From Tidjanibacter sp. (lineage in GTDB: Bacteria > Bacteroidota > Bacteroidia > Bacteroidales > Rikenellaceae), in assembly GCA_017466345.1 (NCBI GenBank), contig JAFTUI010000011.1:1-41029 (forward strand): a stretch of 41,029 nucleotides of DNA, given 5' to 3'. Below are positions 3,262-41,029 of this stretch, in pieces. The notes below the pieces were generated by a model. The model was not told the origin of the DNA. It saw nothing but the letters and a program-made list of their open reading frames with translations, and searched no databases. The position numbers and the translations under genes were made by a program. Within the stretch, counting starts at the first letter, position 1. The number at the start of each line of letters is the position of its first letter.

Positions 3262-3295
3262 GAATTGAGAATTGAGAATTGAGAATTGAGAATTC
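3262..3295. repeat. AATTGAG 7-bp tandem array
   Basis: Just over four exact units of a 7-bp repeat fill the gap between the aminotransferase stop and the CoA-transferase start. The same array type occurs at about ten other intergenic sites in the window. Confidence 0.9.
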
Positions 3296-9687: not shown

Positions 9688-9719
9688 CAAAGATATACAT
9701 TTAATTCTCAATTCTCAAT
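9688..9719 (-). promoter_or_regulatory. Promoter of the DUF3078-like gene
   Basis: On the minus strand TATCTTTG (9695-9688) is preceded by ATTG (9719-9716) at 20 bases. The -33 half falls inside the AATTGAG-type array at 9700-9737. Confidence 0.65.
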
Positions 9720-9737
9720 TTTCAATTCTCAATTTTT
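9700..9737. repeat. AATTGAG-type 7-bp array (reverse orientation)
   Basis: About four units of CTCAATT/TTCAATT fill the space between two divergent promoters and overlap the -33 regions of both. Confidence 0.85.
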
Positions 9738-9755: not shown

Positions 9756-10167
9756 GTGTTTGGCGTGGGGGTTTAGTCGCTGCCTCCCTTTGGGGAGGGA
9801 GAGGAAAGTCCGAGCAACACAGAGCACCGTACTTCCTAACAGAAAGTTGTCGGCAACGGCAAGGTTCAAGGTAACAGAAAACAACCGCCCCGCAAGGGGT
9901 AAGGGTGAAAAGGCGGGGTAAGAGCCCACCGCTCGTGTGGCAACACTTTGAGGTCAGTACCACCTACGGGTTGCAAGTTCAAGTATATCGACAGTATGTA
10001 GGGTTGCTCGCCCGATGTCGAGGGGTAGAACGCTACTTTTTAGCCTGCGTGTGAGCGCAGTGTATAGATTAATGACTAAAACCGCCCATCTGCAAGGAGA
10101 AGGCTCTGCGTAGCCTCTCCGAGGATGCAAGCGGTACAGAACTCGGCTTATACCCCGCACCAAACAC
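9756..10167 (+). ncRNA. rnpB: RNase P RNA, bacterial class A
   Basis: A ~412-base catalytic RNA that removes 5' leaders from pre-tRNAs. The universal conserved blocks are present: GAGGAAAGTCCGAGCA near the 5' end, ACAGAAAACAACCGCC and GGTAAGGGTGAAAAGG in the middle, GTAAGAGCCCACCG, and CAGAACTCGGCTTATA near the 3' end. P1 pairs GTGTTTGG (9756-9763) with CCAAACAC (10160-10167), which fixes both ends. P1 is followed directly by a T-run and probably forms part of the terminator. Protein ORFs that can be drawn across this region are accidental. Confidence 0.97.
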
Positions 10168-10199
10168 TTTTTTCTGAATTGAAAATTGAAAATTAAAAA

Positions 10200-11420
10200 T
10201 TGAAAATTAATCCGCTCAACATAGAATCATTCGACTACGAGTTGCCCGATGAGAGAATTGCAAAGTTCCCTCTCGCGGAGCGTGACCACTCCAAACTTTT
10301 GGTATGGAGGGAGGGCACCATTGCCGAGCGCAGGTTCTACAATCTGGGCGAGGAGTTGCCCGAGGGAGCATTGCTCGTCTTTAATAACACCAAGGTATTC
10401 CGCGCAAGGCTCATTATGCACAAGCCCAGCGGCGCACGCTTGGAGGTCTTCTGCTTGGAGCCTCACGCACCTGCCGACTACGAGAATGCCTTTTCGGCAA
10501 GGGGCGAGAGTCAATGGCGTTGCCTTGTGGGCGGCTTGAAGAAGTGGAAGGAGGGCGCACTTGTCATCGACTTCGAGATGAATGGCAAGCCTTGCCGTTT
10601 GGAGGCTTATCGTGGCGAGCAGATAGACAAAGCGCACGTTGTGACCTTCCGTTGGGATGCAGACGCCACCTTTGGCGAGATTATAGAGCACCTCGGCAGG
10701 ATACCCATACCGCCCTACCTCAACCGCGAGTGTCAGGAGATTGACAACACTCGCTATCAGACGGTCTATTCGCGCATCGAGGGCTCGGTGGCGGCTCCTA
10801 CGGCAGGACTTCACTTCACACCCCGACTGATTGAGGAGTTGCACACAAGGGGCATCCAAACCTCGGAGGTTACGCTTCACGTTGGCGCAGGCACCTTCCT
10901 GCCCGTCAAGGAGAGCGATGCCTCGCTCCACACGATGCACACCGAGCATTTTGTGGTGGAGAGAGCCACACTCCATAGGCTCATTGCCAACGTGGGGCAC
11001 ATCTTCTCGGTGGGCACTACCAGCACCCGCACCATAGAGTCGCTCTCGGCACTCGGATGGAGAGTCGTGCAGTGCGGCTCGCCCGAGGCAGAGAGAGTAG
11101 TTGGTCAGTGGGAGATATACGACATTCCGAGCGAGAAGAGTGGCAAAGAACTGCTCACAGCACTCGCCGATTGGATGGAGCGCGAGGGTATTGAACACCT
11201 CTCGGCTGCCACCCAAATTATGATAACACCCTTCTACCGCTTCCGCATCATAGATGGTCTTGTGACCAACTTCCACCAGCCCAAGAGCACCCTATTGCTC
11301 CTGATTTCGGCTATTGTGGGCGAGGAGTGGCGCAACATCTACCGCTACGCTATGGAGAACGATTTCAGGTTCCTCTCCTACGGCGATAGTTCGTTGCTCT
11401 TCGTGCCGAAGCAATTTTGA
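10200..11420 (+). CDS. queA: S-adenosylmethionine:tRNA ribosyltransferase-isomerase
   Basis: A 406-residue enzyme that transfers and isomerises the ribosyl group of S-adenosylmethionine onto preQ1-tRNA to give epoxyqueuosine. It starts in the family style (FDYELPDERIAKFPLAERDHSKLL), with VFNNTKVFRARL, PPYLNRE, SVAAPTAGLHFT, LHVGAGTFLPV and TNFHQPKSTLLLL, all conserved in QueA. It is ~50 residues longer than the E. coli enzyme because of insertions. The start is TTG at 10200: an in-frame TAA lies two codons upstream and the next ATG is ~70 codons in, inside the domain. The TTG is embedded in AATTGAA repeats. It leads the run queA-ygiQ-dnaB. Confidence 0.95.
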   Translation: MKINPLNIESFDYELPDERIAKFPLAERDHSKLLVWREGTIAERRFYNLGEELPEGALLVFNNTKVFRARLIMHKPSGARLEVFCLEPHAPADYENAFSARGESQWRCLVGGLKKWKEGALVIDFEMNGKPCRLEAYRGEQIDKAHVVTFRWDADATFGEIIEHLGRIPIPPYLNRECQEIDNTRYQTVYSRIEGSVAAPTAGLHFTPRLIEELHTRGIQTSEVTLHVGAGTFLPVKESDASLHTMHTEHFVVERATLHRLIANVGHIFSVGTTSTRTIESLSALGWRVVQCGSPEAERVVGQWEIYDIPSEKSGKELLTALADWMEREGIEHLSAATQIMITPFYRFRIIDGLVTNFHQPKSTLLLLISAIVGEEWRNIYRYAMENDFRFLSYGDSSLLFVPKQF

Positions 11421-15068: not shown

Positions 15069-16622
15069 ATGGCATTTAGGAGAGTATATAGTTCAGCAGT
15101 AGTGGGTATTAACGCCCTCACAGTGGAGGTCGAGGCAAATGTCTCGCCAGGTATAGGTATGTATTTGGTGGGACTGCCGGATAGTGCCGTCAAGGAGAGC
15201 CACGAGCGTATTCGCTCCGCCTTCGAGAATAGCGGACTGAGGATGGTGGGCAAAAAGACCATCGTAAATCTCGCGCCTGCCGACCTGAAAAAGGAGGGCT
15301 CATCGCTCGATTTGCCCATAGCCATTGCGATGTTGGCGGCAACCGAGCAGGTGGCAAATGAGAATATAGGCGAGTGGGTGATTATGGGCGAGTTGTCGCT
15401 CGATGGCACAGTAAAGCCCATAAAGGGTGCTCTGCCGGTGGCTATTGAGGCTCTGGCAAAAGGTTTTAGGGGTGTGATACTCCCCAAAGAGAATGCCGAT
15501 GAAGCGGCAGTTGTAGAGGGTTTGGAGGTTATTGGGGTAGGCTCGCTCAAAGAGGCTGTCGATTTCCTCAATGGAGTGCTTCCCATATTCCCCACCAAGG
15601 TCGCAACCGAACTGCTCTTTGTGGAGCGTGCCAATCGTTATGGCGAGGACTTTTCGGATGTAAAAGGTCAGGAGTACGTCAAGCGTGCTTTGGAGGTTGC
15701 GGCAGCAGGCGGTCACAACATTGTGATGATTGGTGCTCCGGGCTCGGGCAAGACTATGCTCGCCCGTAGGATGCCTACGATTATGCCCCCTTTGTCGCTC
15801 GAAGAGGCTCTCGAAACCACCAAGATACACTCCGTAGCGGGTAAGCTCGGCAGCGAGAAAGGACTCCTCACACGCCGTCCATTCCGTGCGCCCCACCACT
15901 TGGCCTCGGCAGTGGCTATGGTGGGCGGTGGCAGCAACCCCCAGCCCGGCGAGATTTCGCTCGCCCACAATGGCATACTCTTCCTCGATGAGCTGCCCGA
16001 GTTTGGCAGGTCCATATTGGAGGTTATGCGCCAGCCATTGGAGGACAAGGTGGTGACCGTTGCGAGGGCTAAGTACTCGGTGGTCTATCCTGCAAACTTT
16101 ATGCTCGTAGCTTCGATGAACCCCTGCCCTTGTGGCTACTACAACCACCCCACCAAGGAGTGCAACTGTTCGCGCTACGCTGTGGAGAAGTACATAAACA
16201 AAATTTCGGGTCCCCTAATGGACCGTATAGACATACAAATAGAGGTCACGCCCGTAGAGTACGACCAGATGCAGGAGCGTCAGCCTGCCGAGCCCAGCAG
16301 TGCCATTCGCCAAAGGGTTATTGCCGCCAGGGAGCGTCAGCAGAGGCGTTTTGAGGGCATCGAGGGTGTCTTTACGAATGCTATGATGAATAGCGCGATG
16401 ATTGCCGAGTTCTGTCCTCTGGACGAGCAATGTAGCGCACTGCTCGGTAGGGCTATGGAGCGACTGTCGCTCTCGGCAAGGGCCTACAACCGCATCATAA
16501 AGGTTGCCCGCACCATTGCCGACCTCGAAGGAGCCGAGCAAATCAACTCCTCGCACATCGCCGAGGCTATCGGCTACCGCAACCTCGATAGGGAGAATTG
16601 GGGTGTGAGAGTTGAGAATTGA
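15069..16622 (+). CDS. comM: YifB/ComM family Mg-chelatase-like AAA+ ATPase
   Basis: A 517-residue AAA+ protein. Residues 1-~170 form the Lon-protease-like ChlI domain (VEVEANVSPGIGMYLVGLPD, LDLPIAIAML). The ATPase follows with Walker A GAPGSGKTML (~222-231), Walker B ILFLDELPEF, and the C-terminal Mg-chelatase-like domain (SARAYNRIIKVARTIADLEG). A cysteine cluster (NPCPCGYY...CNC) is typical. ComM is a branch-migration helicase that helps integrate transforming DNA. The ATG at 15069 gives the standard start MAFRRVYSSAVVGI; upstream codons are repeat A1. Its stop lies within an AATTGAG array. comEC follows on the same strand. Confidence 0.95.
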   Translation: MAFRRVYSSAVVGINALTVEVEANVSPGIGMYLVGLPDSAVKESHERIRSAFENSGLRMVGKKTIVNLAPADLKKEGSSLDLPIAIAMLAATEQVANENIGEWVIMGELSLDGTVKPIKGALPVAIEALAKGFRGVILPKENADEAAVVEGLEVIGVGSLKEAVDFLNGVLPIFPTKVATELLFVERANRYGEDFSDVKGQEYVKRALEVAAAGGHNIVMIGAPGSGKTMLARRMPTIMPPLSLEEALETTKIHSVAGKLGSEKGLLTRRPFRAPHHLASAVAMVGGGSNPQPGEISLAHNGILFLDELPEFGRSILEVMRQPLEDKVVTVARAKYSVVYPANFMLVASMNPCPCGYYNHPTKECNCSRYAVEKYINKISGPLMDRIDIQIEVTPVEYDQMQERQPAEPSSAIRQRVIAARERQQRRFEGIEGVFTNAMMNSAMIAEFCPLDEQCSALLGRAMERLSLSARAYNRIIKVARTIADLEGAEQINSSHIAEAIGYRNLDRENWGVRVEN

Positions 16623-16663
16623 GAATTGAGAATTGAGAATTGAGCGATGAGAGTTGAGAATTA
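16611..16663. repeat. AATTGAG 7-bp array overlapping the comM stop
   Basis: About seven imperfect units. The first TGA of the array is the comM stop codon. Confidence 0.88.
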
Positions 16664-24802: not shown

Positions 24803-24833
24803 CAAATATAGGGACTATAATTGAAAGTTGAAA
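24803..24833 (-). promoter_or_regulatory. Promoter of the mce-mmd operon
   Basis: Minus strand TTTC (24833-24830), 19 bases, TATATTTG (24810-24803). The transcript would have a ~100-base leader. The sequence around the -7 element matches that of the aminotransferase promoter at 4643. Confidence 0.75.
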
Positions 24834-25237
24834 ATTGAAAATTGAAAATTGCGTATTTTTTGTCAGGAGTGAGAGGAGTGACAGGAAAAACAAGAGGAAC
24901 AGGAAAAACAAGAACACTCCCTCAAAAAACCACTCGCGGGTATAAAAAAAGATACCCGCGAACAATGTGGCGACCGTTAATTTTGAGAGCGGTAGATACC
25001 AACCGCCCACCTTTGGTGGTCGTGCCAGGACGGAGTTTTGCAACCCGTATTACTCCTGTTACTCCTATTACCCCTATTACCCCTATTACCCCTGTCATTC
25101 CTATTATCCCTGCCTCCGCTTCTTCCCTCGCCCCCTATTTTTGCAATTTTTTCGCTCAAACAATGGGCAATTCTAAAAAAATTCAAGAAAATTTTGAAAA
25201 ATTTTAATAAAGATGACTAATTATTAAAAAATATATT
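24834..25237. repeat. Repeat-rich intergenic region before the ROK gene
   Basis: No gene. 24825-24852 has AAAATTG-type 7-bp repeats; 24866-24915 has degenerate repeats containing GGAAAAACAAG; 24934-24961 is a hairpin (TCGCGGGTAT/ATACCCGCGA, 8-base loop) whose inner part matches the one at 20273-20324 in reverse; 25049-25110 is a 9-bp ATTACCCCT-type array of about seven units. The last ~100 bases are A/T-rich. Confidence 0.8.
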
Positions 25238-39139: not shown

Positions 39140-40390
39140 CTACAAATTAAAAACTTTCTTGATGTTTTCTACTTCGTCCAACTCCTCCCAGCCGAAGAAT
39201 TTTATTGTTTCTGTGGTGGTCTTACCGTTCCTTATGAGCGTCACCTCTTTGGTATAGGGGCGGCGACCGAAGTGACCATAGGAGGCTGTGGGCTCGAAGA
39301 TGGGGTTGGTAAGCCCGAAGCGTCTAACGATACTTGCGGGGCGCAAGTCGAACATTTCGTCTATAACCTCCGCAATCTCCCCATCGGTTTGCGAGATTTT
39401 TGAGGTGCCAAAGGTGTCCACAAAGATGTTGATAGGCTCTGCCACACCAATGGCATAACTAACCTGCACCAGCATACGCTCTGCGACACCTGCGGCAACC
39501 ATATTCTTGGCGATGTGGCGTGCGGCATAGGCTGCCGAGCGGTCCACCTTCGAGGGGTCCTTACCCGAGAAAGCACCACCACCGTGTGCGCCCCTACCAC
39601 CATAGGTATCTACAATAATTTTGCGACCCGTCAAGCCCGTATCGCCGTGAGGACCACCAATAACGAACTTTCCTGTGGGGTTGACATAGAGAATGTACTC
39701 CTCGCCAATCAGGTCGGCAAGGTGGTCGCCAGCCCTCTCCAAACGCTCCTTGACACGGGGAATGAGGATGTTGCGTACATCCTCGGCAATGATGCGCTGG
39801 CAATCCTCGAAGTCATCGTGCTGTGTAGAAACGACAATGGTGTGTACCCTCTGAGGGGTGCCGTTGTCGTCATACTCAATGGTTACCTGACTCTTCGAGT
39901 CGGGACGCAGGTAGCACATAACCTTACCCTCGCGGCGGATGTCAGCGAGTTCTTTGAGGATGACGTGCGAGAGGATGAGCGTTGCGGGCATCAACTCGCG
40001 GCTCTCGGTACAAGCATAGCCGAACATAATACCCTGGTCGCCTGCGCCCTGCTCCTCTTCGGTTTCGCGCACCACGCCCTGGTTGATGTCGCTCGACTGC
40101 TCGTGAATAGCCGAGAGTATGCCGCACGAGTTGCCGTCAAACTGCAACTCACTGCGATTGTAACCTATCTGGTTGATTACTCGGCGTGCAACACCCTGAA
40201 TATCAACGTATGCATCCGAGCGCACCTCGCCCGACACAACAACCAAACCCGTGGTGCAAAGAGTTTCGCAAGCTACCTTGCTTGCGGGATCCTTGCGCAA
40301 AAATTCATCGAGAATAGCATCCGAAATCTGGTCGGACACCTTGTCGGGATGTCCCTCCGATACCGACTCCGATGTGAACAAAAAAGCCAT
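39140..40390 (-). CDS. metK: S-adenosylmethionine synthetase
   Basis: A 416-residue enzyme making S-adenosylmethionine from methionine and ATP. All signatures are present: [20 protein letters not shown], the [12 protein letters not shown] hexapeptide region, the metal-binding stretch, and [20 protein letters not shown]. Compared with the ~385-residue E. coli enzyme there are small insertions and a longer C-terminus ([19 protein letters not shown]). Expression is probably controlled by the SAM-II-like leader at 40533-40617, about 140 bases upstream of the ATG. An AATTGAG array lies just upstream of the start. Confidence 0.97.
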
Positions 40391-40404
40391 ACCTTACAAA
40401 ATTC

Positions 40405-40431
40405 AGAATTGAGAATTGAGAATTGAGAATT
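40405..40431. repeat. AATTGAG 7-bp array in the metK leader
   Basis: About three and a half units, 15-41 bases upstream of the metK start codon, inside its transcribed leader. Confidence 0.88.
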
Positions 40432-40473
40432 ACGAGAATCCTCAACAATCAAATCTTCAATTTGGTTAAACGT

Positions 40474-40530
40474 CTATTTCTTAGGTGGGTAGTTTGGTGC
40501 GAGAGGGTTGGAGCAAACGCTCCAACTCAT
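40474..40530 (-). CDS. Possible 18-codon leader ORF of metK
   Basis: ATG (40530-40528) through TAG (40476-40474) encodes MSWSVCSNPLAPNYPPKK. The start codon comes three bases after the conserved AAAAAG of the riboswitch, the position normally taken by the regulated start codon in SAM-II. It is out of frame with metK. Its codons overlap a strong hairpin (GTTGGAGC/GCTCCAAC, 40526-40507). There is no direct evidence of translation. Confidence 0.4.
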   Translation of the reverse strand: MSWSVCSNPLAPNYPPKK

Positions 40531-40532
40531 TG

Positions 40533-40617
40533 CTTTTTAGCACTTTTTTGCCCCTCGGCAACTCTCTTGGAGCCCCATAGGTGGCGTGGTTTGCAAGCAG
40601 CCAAATCTTTCCACGCC
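40533..40617 (-). promoter_or_regulatory. SAM-II-like riboswitch upstream of metK
   Basis: Minus strand. P1 is a perfect 7-bp stem CCACGCC/GGCGTGG (40617-40611 as GGCGTGG, with 40589-40583). Its loop is AAAGATTTGGCTGCTTGCA followed by AA, holding the SAM-II invariant pieces GATTT and TTGCA. The 3' strand contains GTGCTAAAAAGC (40543-40532), matching the conserved GCTAAAAAG. Loop GCT can pair with the following AGC to form the pseudoknot; in the classic SAM-II this pairing is made by other bases. An extra hairpin TTGCC-GAGG-GGCAA (40561-40548) is inserted in the connecting segment. The aptamer begins at the predicted transcription start. The gene downstream makes SAM, which fits. Confidence 0.8.
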
Positions 40618-40618
40618 G

Positions 40619-40648
40619 CAAAGGTACAAAAAAAGTTGAGAATTGAAA
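40619..40648 (-). promoter_or_regulatory. Promoter of metK
   Basis: Minus strand TTTC (40648-40645), 18 bases, TACCTTTG (40626-40619). The expected start site falls at about 40612-40614, the first bases of the riboswitch P1 stem. Confidence 0.7.
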
Positions 40649-40651
40649 ATT

Positions 40652-41029
40652 GAGAATTGACGAAAAAATGGTTTTTCGTCTAAAATGCTCACGCTCGGCA
40701 TAGAAAACAAGTTCTCTCTGCCCTCGCTTAATCGCATTTGCGAGAATTGAGAGTTGAAAGTTTCCCTATAAGCCTTATATGCCCTATAACCCTTATAAGC
40801 CTTAGGACTATTGACGTTAGACCTTAGACGTTAGACGTTAGACAAAGAAAACAGACCTCTCCCGCCTTCGGCACCCTCCCCTAACTTAGGGGAGGGGTAC
40901 AAGGGTTACAAGGGTTACAAGGGTTACAGGGAGTCTTTCCTTGTGACCCCTGCTATCCCTGTTACCCTTGTTATCCCTGCTATCCCTGCAACTCTTAGGA
41001 CTATTGACGTTAGACGTTAGACCGAAAAA
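40652..41029. repeat. Composite repeat region at the right edge
   Basis: No gene. 40652-40842 is copy 2 of the direct repeat at 34231-34414 (hairpin, 9-bp CCCTATAAG-type array, TTAGGACTATTGACG, GTTAGAC units). 40851-40896 is the CCTCTCCCGCCTTCGGCACC hairpin module; 40899-40930 a 9-bp GGTTACAAG array; 40943-40990 a 9-bp CCCTGCTAT-type array; 40994-41029 repeats TTAGGACTATTGACG with GTTAGAC units and stops at CCGAAAAA, the point after which E3 begins at 20347. Confidence 0.88.

Follow-up and report, generated by a model that had tools for sequence, protein, structure and literature searches.

SAM-II riboswitches are often described as hiding the ribosome site with their own pseudoknot, and Bacteroidota use few Shine-Dalgarno sequences. 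The metA-type SAM-II family (RF00521) shares with the aptamer studied here P1, similar conserved words and, probably, the H-type pseudoknot plan. The "long loop" form of SAM-II is listed for Bacteroidetes and marine samples in Table 1 of Weinberg et al. (2010; PMC2864571). According to the excerpts of PMC2258182 (2007), SAM-II mechanisms were at that time without experimental establishment, SAM-II aptamers meet their platforms via the distal pseudoknot, and in riboswitches with a P1 switching strand the ligand-free aptamer strand pairs with the platform. In Sinorhizobium meliloti, the excerpts of PMC9373788 describe a metA SAM-II riboswitch that controls a start 74 nt downstream with a Shine-Dalgarno sequence inside the riboswitch, and an AUG close behind the aptamer is unused as a start in its context. 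SAM-II action at a distance therefore has precedent, by another mechanism. The searched sections of PMC12121620 contain nothing on SAM-II.

Here we analyzed the metK leader of a 41,029-nucleotide stretch of Tidjanibacter sp. DNA (the window) together with the metK leaders of its relatives. Like the S. meliloti metA element, the aptamer would act on a far start, past a nearby AUG; in place of a Shine-Dalgarno sequence inside the riboswitch, however, we propose a hairpin that covers the start and competes with a helix formed with the aptamer. As in P1 switching-strand riboswitches, a ligand-free aptamer strand would pair with the platform, but this strand would be the 5' strand of P1 with L1 and not the distal pseudoknot. 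We found no description of such a platform in the literature searched, outside which lies the supplement of PMC2864571 on SAM-II variants. With a probability of roughly 0.6, the metK riboswitch acts translationally, by a swap of pairing partners at a distance.

Identity and anatomy of the metK aptamer

By its sequence, the metK mRNA begins with a riboswitch of the SAM-II long-loop type, RF01726 (Table 1), which bears out the SAM-II-type riboswitch that an earlier note on this DNA had placed before metK. In a 381-base scan, RF01726 aligns full-length to the minus-strand leader with an E value of 2.8e-6, beyond chance; across the whole 1.8-Mb genome the same match has an E value of 3.2e-6, and the second-best match one of 0.88. 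The P1 helix, GATTT, TTGCA, the A-rich stretch and GCTAAA of the model are all present, and the landmarks that the note had read from the minus strand all lie where it put them. The aptamer sits upstream of a SAM/methionine gene, metK, as RF01726 does in the window's family, and we infer that it binds SAM. The note had pointed to the RF00521 covariance model for a search. The 381-base scan of the window's metK leader yielded nothing at E <= 10 for RF00521, the metA element treated in the excerpts of PMC1273637, and membership in that family was dropped.

Table 1. Features of the metK leader in the window
Feature	Position	Strand	Basis
Putative -7 promoter element TACCTTTG, abutting P1	40619..40626	minus	Sequence; Bacteroidota-type consensus
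SAM-II long-loop aptamer	40527..40620	minus	RF01726 model positions 1-60, 39.7 bits
P1 5' strand GGCGTGG	40611..40617	minus	Sequence and RF01726 alignment
GATTT	40607-40603	minus	Sequence
GCT in L1, putative pseudoknot partner of AGC 40534-40532	40599..40601	minus	Sequence; permutation support weak
TTGCA	40596-40592	minus	Sequence
P1 3' strand CCACGCC	40583..40589	minus	Sequence and RF01726 alignment
Extra hairpin between P1 and 3' strand, subclade-specific; first three bases overlap P1 3' strand	40550..40585	minus	Predicted fold
Conserved 3' strand GCTAAAAAG	40533..40541	minus	RF01726 alignment and sequence
18-codon leader ORF MSWSVCSNPLAPNYPPKK, ATG at 40530	40474..40530	minus	Judged incidental; not conserved in genus
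Hairpin GTTGGAGC-GTTT-GCTCCAAC after the aptamer	40507..40526	minus	Fold; no U-run follows on the minus strand
Element GCACCAAACTACCCACC, complementary to aptamer 5' strand (proposed SAM-free partner)	40484..40500	minus	Duplex, -16.6 kcal/mol
CCACCTAAGAAAT, proposed 5' arm of metK-start hairpin, weak	40476..40488	minus	-6.0 kcal/mol with 40402-40387
ATTTTGTAAGGTATGG, spanning the metK start; candidate 3' arm of the start hairpin	40387..40402	minus	Duplex and fold
metK, methionine adenosyltransferase	39140..40390, start 40390	minus	TIGR01034, 516.7 bits

The match falls below the curated RF01726 cut-off of 44 bits, and for this reason the default Rfam scan of the window shows just RNase P and a tRNA. 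Compared with its Rfam model, that RNase P RNA (class A; 9761-10166, plus strand) carries a ~39-base insertion close to the 3' end. The low RF01726 score plausibly results from a hairpin inserted right after P1. This hairpin, which the earlier note had also seen, is predicted at -16.0 kcal/mol (z -1.90; 11 of 200 shuffles equally stable), and an insert stands at the same place in 12 of 22 genus leaders, where the gap from CCAC to GCTAA is 25-86 nt, as against 11 nt in the other 10. The genus inserts vary in sequence and are more stable than the shuffle mean (z -1.41 to -5.74). Insert-free genus leaders score 51.3-57.6 bits (L034 67.1); of the insert-bearing leaders, nine align to the whole model with 33.8-51.5 bits, and the alignment of the three whose inserts are longest is confined to positions 6-35, at 21 bits. 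The curated cut-off therefore misses members that carry an inserted hairpin. The window's aptamer differs from RF01726 in its sub-cut-off score and its extra hairpin, and our verdict is that the riboswitch is ordinary in identity and a new variant in anatomy.

The note had further proposed that the pseudoknot is retained with changed bases. Three GCT/AGC base pairs could form; the permutation support, over 82 combinations, is weak, the L1/tail helix being 3.02 long against 2.91 when permuted, with 205 of 5000 permutations as good. At the other end of the aptamer, TANNTTTG, which we take to be the Bacteroidota -7 box, precedes GATTT by at most 40 nt in 82 of 131 leaders; a control stretch lying 80-120 nt upstream contains it in 2 of 74. 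The element abuts P1 in the window's subclade, so that transcription probably begins inside the 7-bp P1, within its 5' strand, and perhaps just ~5 bp of P1 are transcribed.

RF01726 matches are widespread among the relatives. They were found at E <= 1 in 189 of 201 family genomes (above the cut-off in 167), at E <= 1e-4 in 97 of 149 genomes of the order, and at E <= 0.5 in 23 of 24 genus genomes, above the cut-off in 13 and adjoining metK in 22. In L046, whose MetK is 91.6% identical to that of the window, the match at the same place reaches 45.0 bits, above the cut-off. Three loci are irregular. L034 (G104:C213) is listed under the genus, but its nearest leaders are Alistipes-type and its genome is incomplete, and it may be a stray or contaminating contig. 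L056 (G037:C8:1048874-1048935) is a second RF01726 match (45.2 bits) followed by a metK start that looks decayed by eye and then by another gene, possibly a relic copy of the riboswitch. L045 (G076:C5:43171-43230) has a 49-bit match without a metK hit alongside.

Between the aptamer and metK

In the window, GCTAA lies 151 nt before metK, and the aptamer 3' strand does not directly occlude the metK start, as the earlier note had argued. The long gap to which the note drew attention is real but not specific to the window. Among 141 leaders with both aptamer and metK (Rikenellaceae family and order set), GCTAA is 61-224 nt from the metK ATG in 140, and a distant aptamer is therefore the rule in these bacteria; the median is 85 nt over the 135 leaders used in the analysis. 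These leaders (131 distinct, 74 in a less redundant subset) were drawn from 30 plus 60 further loci among the matches listed in 201 family genomes, from the genus loci and from 30 listed order loci. Loci without metK at the match (L045, L053, L056, L057, L059, L060) and weak matches in the window's own genome (L002-L004) were dropped. Six leaders entered the distance count alone: L101, L109, L129, L140 and L149, left out by the pattern used (GATTTG >50 nt before metK), and L025, whose metK was missed by tblastn. A later check placed the aptamer 70-217 nt before metK in five of the six and 6 nt in L109, so the filter would have hidden direct-occlusion cases such as this one. In L109 (G126:C76, reverse strand), an Alistipes relative, the aptamer runs into the metK start (GCTAAAATG), with GCTAA 6 nt before the ATG; in its relatives the separation is 60-200 nt.

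A separate named set comprised 80 metK loci, of which 79 were scanned (the match in L220 lacks the start) and 42 carry the aptamer by a pattern search that may miss aptamers. The 38 loci tested have the aptamer at 53-221 nt; four stood aside from the tests, L151 and L152 (Rikenellaceae or Alistipes; ~71 nt), and L154 and L230, in which the aptamer reaches up to or over the metK start. With L109, L154 and L230, a direct-occlusion layout exists beside the distant one.

The ATG at 40530, close behind the aptamer of the window, opens an 18-codon ORF, and the earlier note had read this as control through leader translation. On such a reading, SAM would govern translation of the ORF, and the ribosomes there would set the structure before metK. 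The ATG indeed follows GCTAAAAAG, the frame crosses a hairpin, and L054, L055 and L058 begin with the same codons, ATG AGT TGG. The comparison across relatives that the note had suggested speaks against it. Counting ATG starts only, an ORF of at least 9 codons within 25 nt of GCTAA occurs in 8 of 22 genus metK leaders, at three offsets (6, 7 and 11); L043 and L049 have an ATG with an immediate stop, and the other 12 have no such ATG ORF. The ORF is absent from L046, L047, L048, L050 and L052 despite 89-92% identical MetK. The peptides differ save for the first residues MSW, common to the window, L054, L055 and L058, so that the conserved short ORF by which a leader-peptide attenuator is recognized comes down to, at most, three residues in four leaders. 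We therefore rejected leader-ORF control as the main mechanism, regard it as very improbable, and consider the ORF at 40530 best seen as incidental.

A long leader containing hairpins could also serve transcription control, with SAM favoring termination in the leader, intrinsic or Rho-dependent. In the scan of 40380-40800, however, there was no intrinsic terminator (hairpin and U-run before metK) on the minus strand and one hit on the plus strand. An intrinsic-terminator platform was accordingly rejected, and termination of either kind appears quite unlikely. The plus-strand hit, at 40505-40528, is the leader hairpin read on the opposite strand, where GCTAAAAAG provides the T-run that makes it terminator-like.

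Dual complementarity of the post-aptamer element

Many leaders continue behind the aptamer with a stretch resembling CAGCCAATTTTTCCCATTTTATACGTTTAAC, and TAAAATGGG or a similar sequence follows at the metK start. The first half of this element can pair with the 5' strand of the aptamer, GGAAAGATTTGACTG, and the second half is complementary to the metK start. Examples of the start pairing, picked by eye, are CCCATTTT/AAAATGGG in L010, CCATTTTAAAAT/ATTTTAAAATGG in L035, CCATATTAA/TTAATATGG in L051 and CCATACGTT/AACGTATGG in L107, and, with one far-end mismatch allowed, CCATAATAATT/AGTTATTATGG in L048.

Both complementarities exceed those of shuffled sequences. The start:leader duplex has a mean z of -1.89, with z < -1.64 in 72 of 131 leaders as against 10 for a control upstream stretch. 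For the aptamer-strand:leader duplex the mean z is -1.46, with z < -1.64 in 56 of 131 (control 11); the leader stretch was taken from nine bases past the G of GCTAA, so that in some loci it includes one or two pseudoknot-strand bases, which may have raised the aptamer scores slightly. Exchanging partners among leaders, a permutation that leaves shared ancestry in place, gave z -15.0 for the start and -6.2 for the aptamer strand in the 131 leaders, equalled by 0 of 2000 permutations; for the 74 less redundant leaders, the values are -9.1 and -5.8 (0 of 5000). In the 38 named loci, a set that is separate but not blind, its leaders having been inspected before testing, the values are -4.0 and -5.4 (0 of 5000). 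Taken singly, 32 of 131 leaders have a swap rank below 0.05 for the start and 25 of 131 for the aptamer strand, and 13 and 35, respectively, fall behind more than half of the swaps. Single named loci rarely stand out, with z < -1.64 in 4 of 38 for the start and 10 of 38 for the aptamer strand. These tests use duplex energies, which replaced an ungapped start-helix count because many helices are bulged; that count beat the swaps in just 81 of 117 leaders, and 14 of 131 were unscorable.

Folding points in the same direction. In folds that lack the aptamer, the start has an accessibility of 0.227 as against 0.425 in shuffles, and it is lower in 106 of 125 leaders (the 131 without the 6 longest). 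When the RNA is cut before the start, pairing of the aptamer strand with the leader is 0.733 as against 0.515, higher in 119 of 125. In aptamer-free folds of the 74 leaders, counted without a shuffle control, at least 2 AUG bases are paired upstream in 52 (37 of 51 leaders of the family and 15 of 23 of other families), and each of the positions -8 to -1 uses five or six pair types. In the named set, where 36 of 38 loci fall within the length limits, start accessibility is 0.410 as against 0.443 in shuffles, lower in 21 of 36. Since this is hardly below the shuffles and few named loci stand out, support for the start hairpin comes mainly from Rikenellaceae. Where the aptamer pattern is missing, the metK start is more open than in shuffles (0.571 and 0.511 in 36 of the 37 pattern-negative named loci; L176 has 2 bases upstream and was left out), and the start hairpin thus accompanies the aptamer. 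When 58 leaders were aligned with MAFFT and folded with RNAalifold, P1 alone was recovered, because the alignment of the platform is too poor.

This covarying start hairpin is left unexplained by a standby or loading-site mechanism of the Sinorhizobium metA kind, in which the pseudoknot region would be a ribosome contact site on which initiation at the distant metK depends. The precedent in the excerpts of PMC9373788 and the 151-nt gap of the window would suit such a mechanism. No Shine-Dalgarno sequence is seen in the window's 3' strand (AAAAAAGTGCTAAAAAGCAATG). Bacteroidota, moreover, rely little on Shine-Dalgarno sequences, and we hold a standby site to be improbable here.

The proposed partner swap and its standing in the window

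In the partner swap that we favor, the leader element 3' of the aptamer would have two alternative partners, the aptamer 5' strand (the 5' side of P1, GAUUU and L1) and the region where metK translation is initiated. At low SAM, the aptamer strand would capture the element during emergence of the RNA, which would keep the metK start free. At high SAM, P1 and the pseudoknot would lock the aptamer strand, and the freed element would pair with the metK start, so that translation falls. The swap would amount to feedback on SAM synthesis. Computation shows the identity of the aptamer, its distance from metK and, over many relatives, the two complementarities; SAM binding, the direction of switching and a co-transcriptional order of events are inferred. 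In equilibrium folds of the full RNA, start accessibility is 0.314 with the aptamer strand free and 0.235 otherwise, higher in 108 of 131 leaders; the gain exceeds 0.1 in 42 of 131, and 5 change by more than 0.1 in the opposite direction. Because this opening is small, switching would need either kinetic control, through the order in which the RNA folds, or the energy of SAM binding.

For the window, there is moderate support for the aptamer pairing, and the start hairpin is weak. Pairing of the aptamer strand with the whole leader made before the start is 0.51 as against 0.16 in shuffles, with 3 of 20 shuffles as high, and the duplex (z -1.10; 9 of 100 shuffles as strong) is not significant alone. 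At the start, CC, ACCU and GAAAU would pair with GG, AGGU and AUUUU, and of these pairings, those of ACCT with AGGT and of GAAAT with ATTTT occur in the aptamer-free minimum free energy fold. This start duplex has a z of +1.76, with 98 of 100 shuffles as strong; start accessibility is 0.401 as against 0.373 in shuffles and 0.413 at equilibrium with the aptamer strand free, and the window is outside the 52 leaders with a paired AUG. The mechanism is therefore argued from the family and is, for the window, plausible but unproven, since its start pairing is no better than in shuffles.

That same start pairing is what a degenerate switch would leave, if the aptamer persists in the window and the platform has been disrupted by repeats expanding between the element and the start. 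A 7-bp repeat array occupies 40400-40431, between the two arms of the start hairpin. The aptamer landmarks, however, are intact, and the aptamer-strand complementarity is kept in the sister leaders L046, L047 and L052 (z -1.99, -2.89 and -3.26), with little in L054, L055 and L058 (~ -0.25). Degeneration is unlikely on balance, if somewhat less so than a standby site or termination.

The repeat unit is CAATTYT; a 19-base pattern built on it matches the window 22 times, with overlaps, and none of 100 shuffles. Its sites are 3263-3295, 9702-9734, 10177-10202, 16610-16642, 24819-24851, 40400-40432 and 40634-40659, besides single sites. Arrays flank the riboswitch on both sides and occur in the promoter region of the window's metK leader and of several sister leaders. 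In addition, short tandem arrays (9- and 18-bp units, GACGTTA) lie at 40764-41022, in the non-coding contig end.

Beyond the window, we give even odds to the broader proposition that the Bacteroidales metK SAM-II long loop has a platform of its own, so far undescribed. Its element would alternate between the aptamer 5' strand and the start codon and coevolve with both, and a start ~60-220 nt away would be regulated without Shine-Dalgarno occlusion. The mechanism departs from the leader-translation reading, and natural pairs of compensating leaders make the partner swap directly testable. If the swap is correct, Bacteroidota contain a large SAM-II lineage that works differently from pseudoknot occlusion, and start-codon hairpins may be a common riboswitch output where Shine-Dalgarno use is low.
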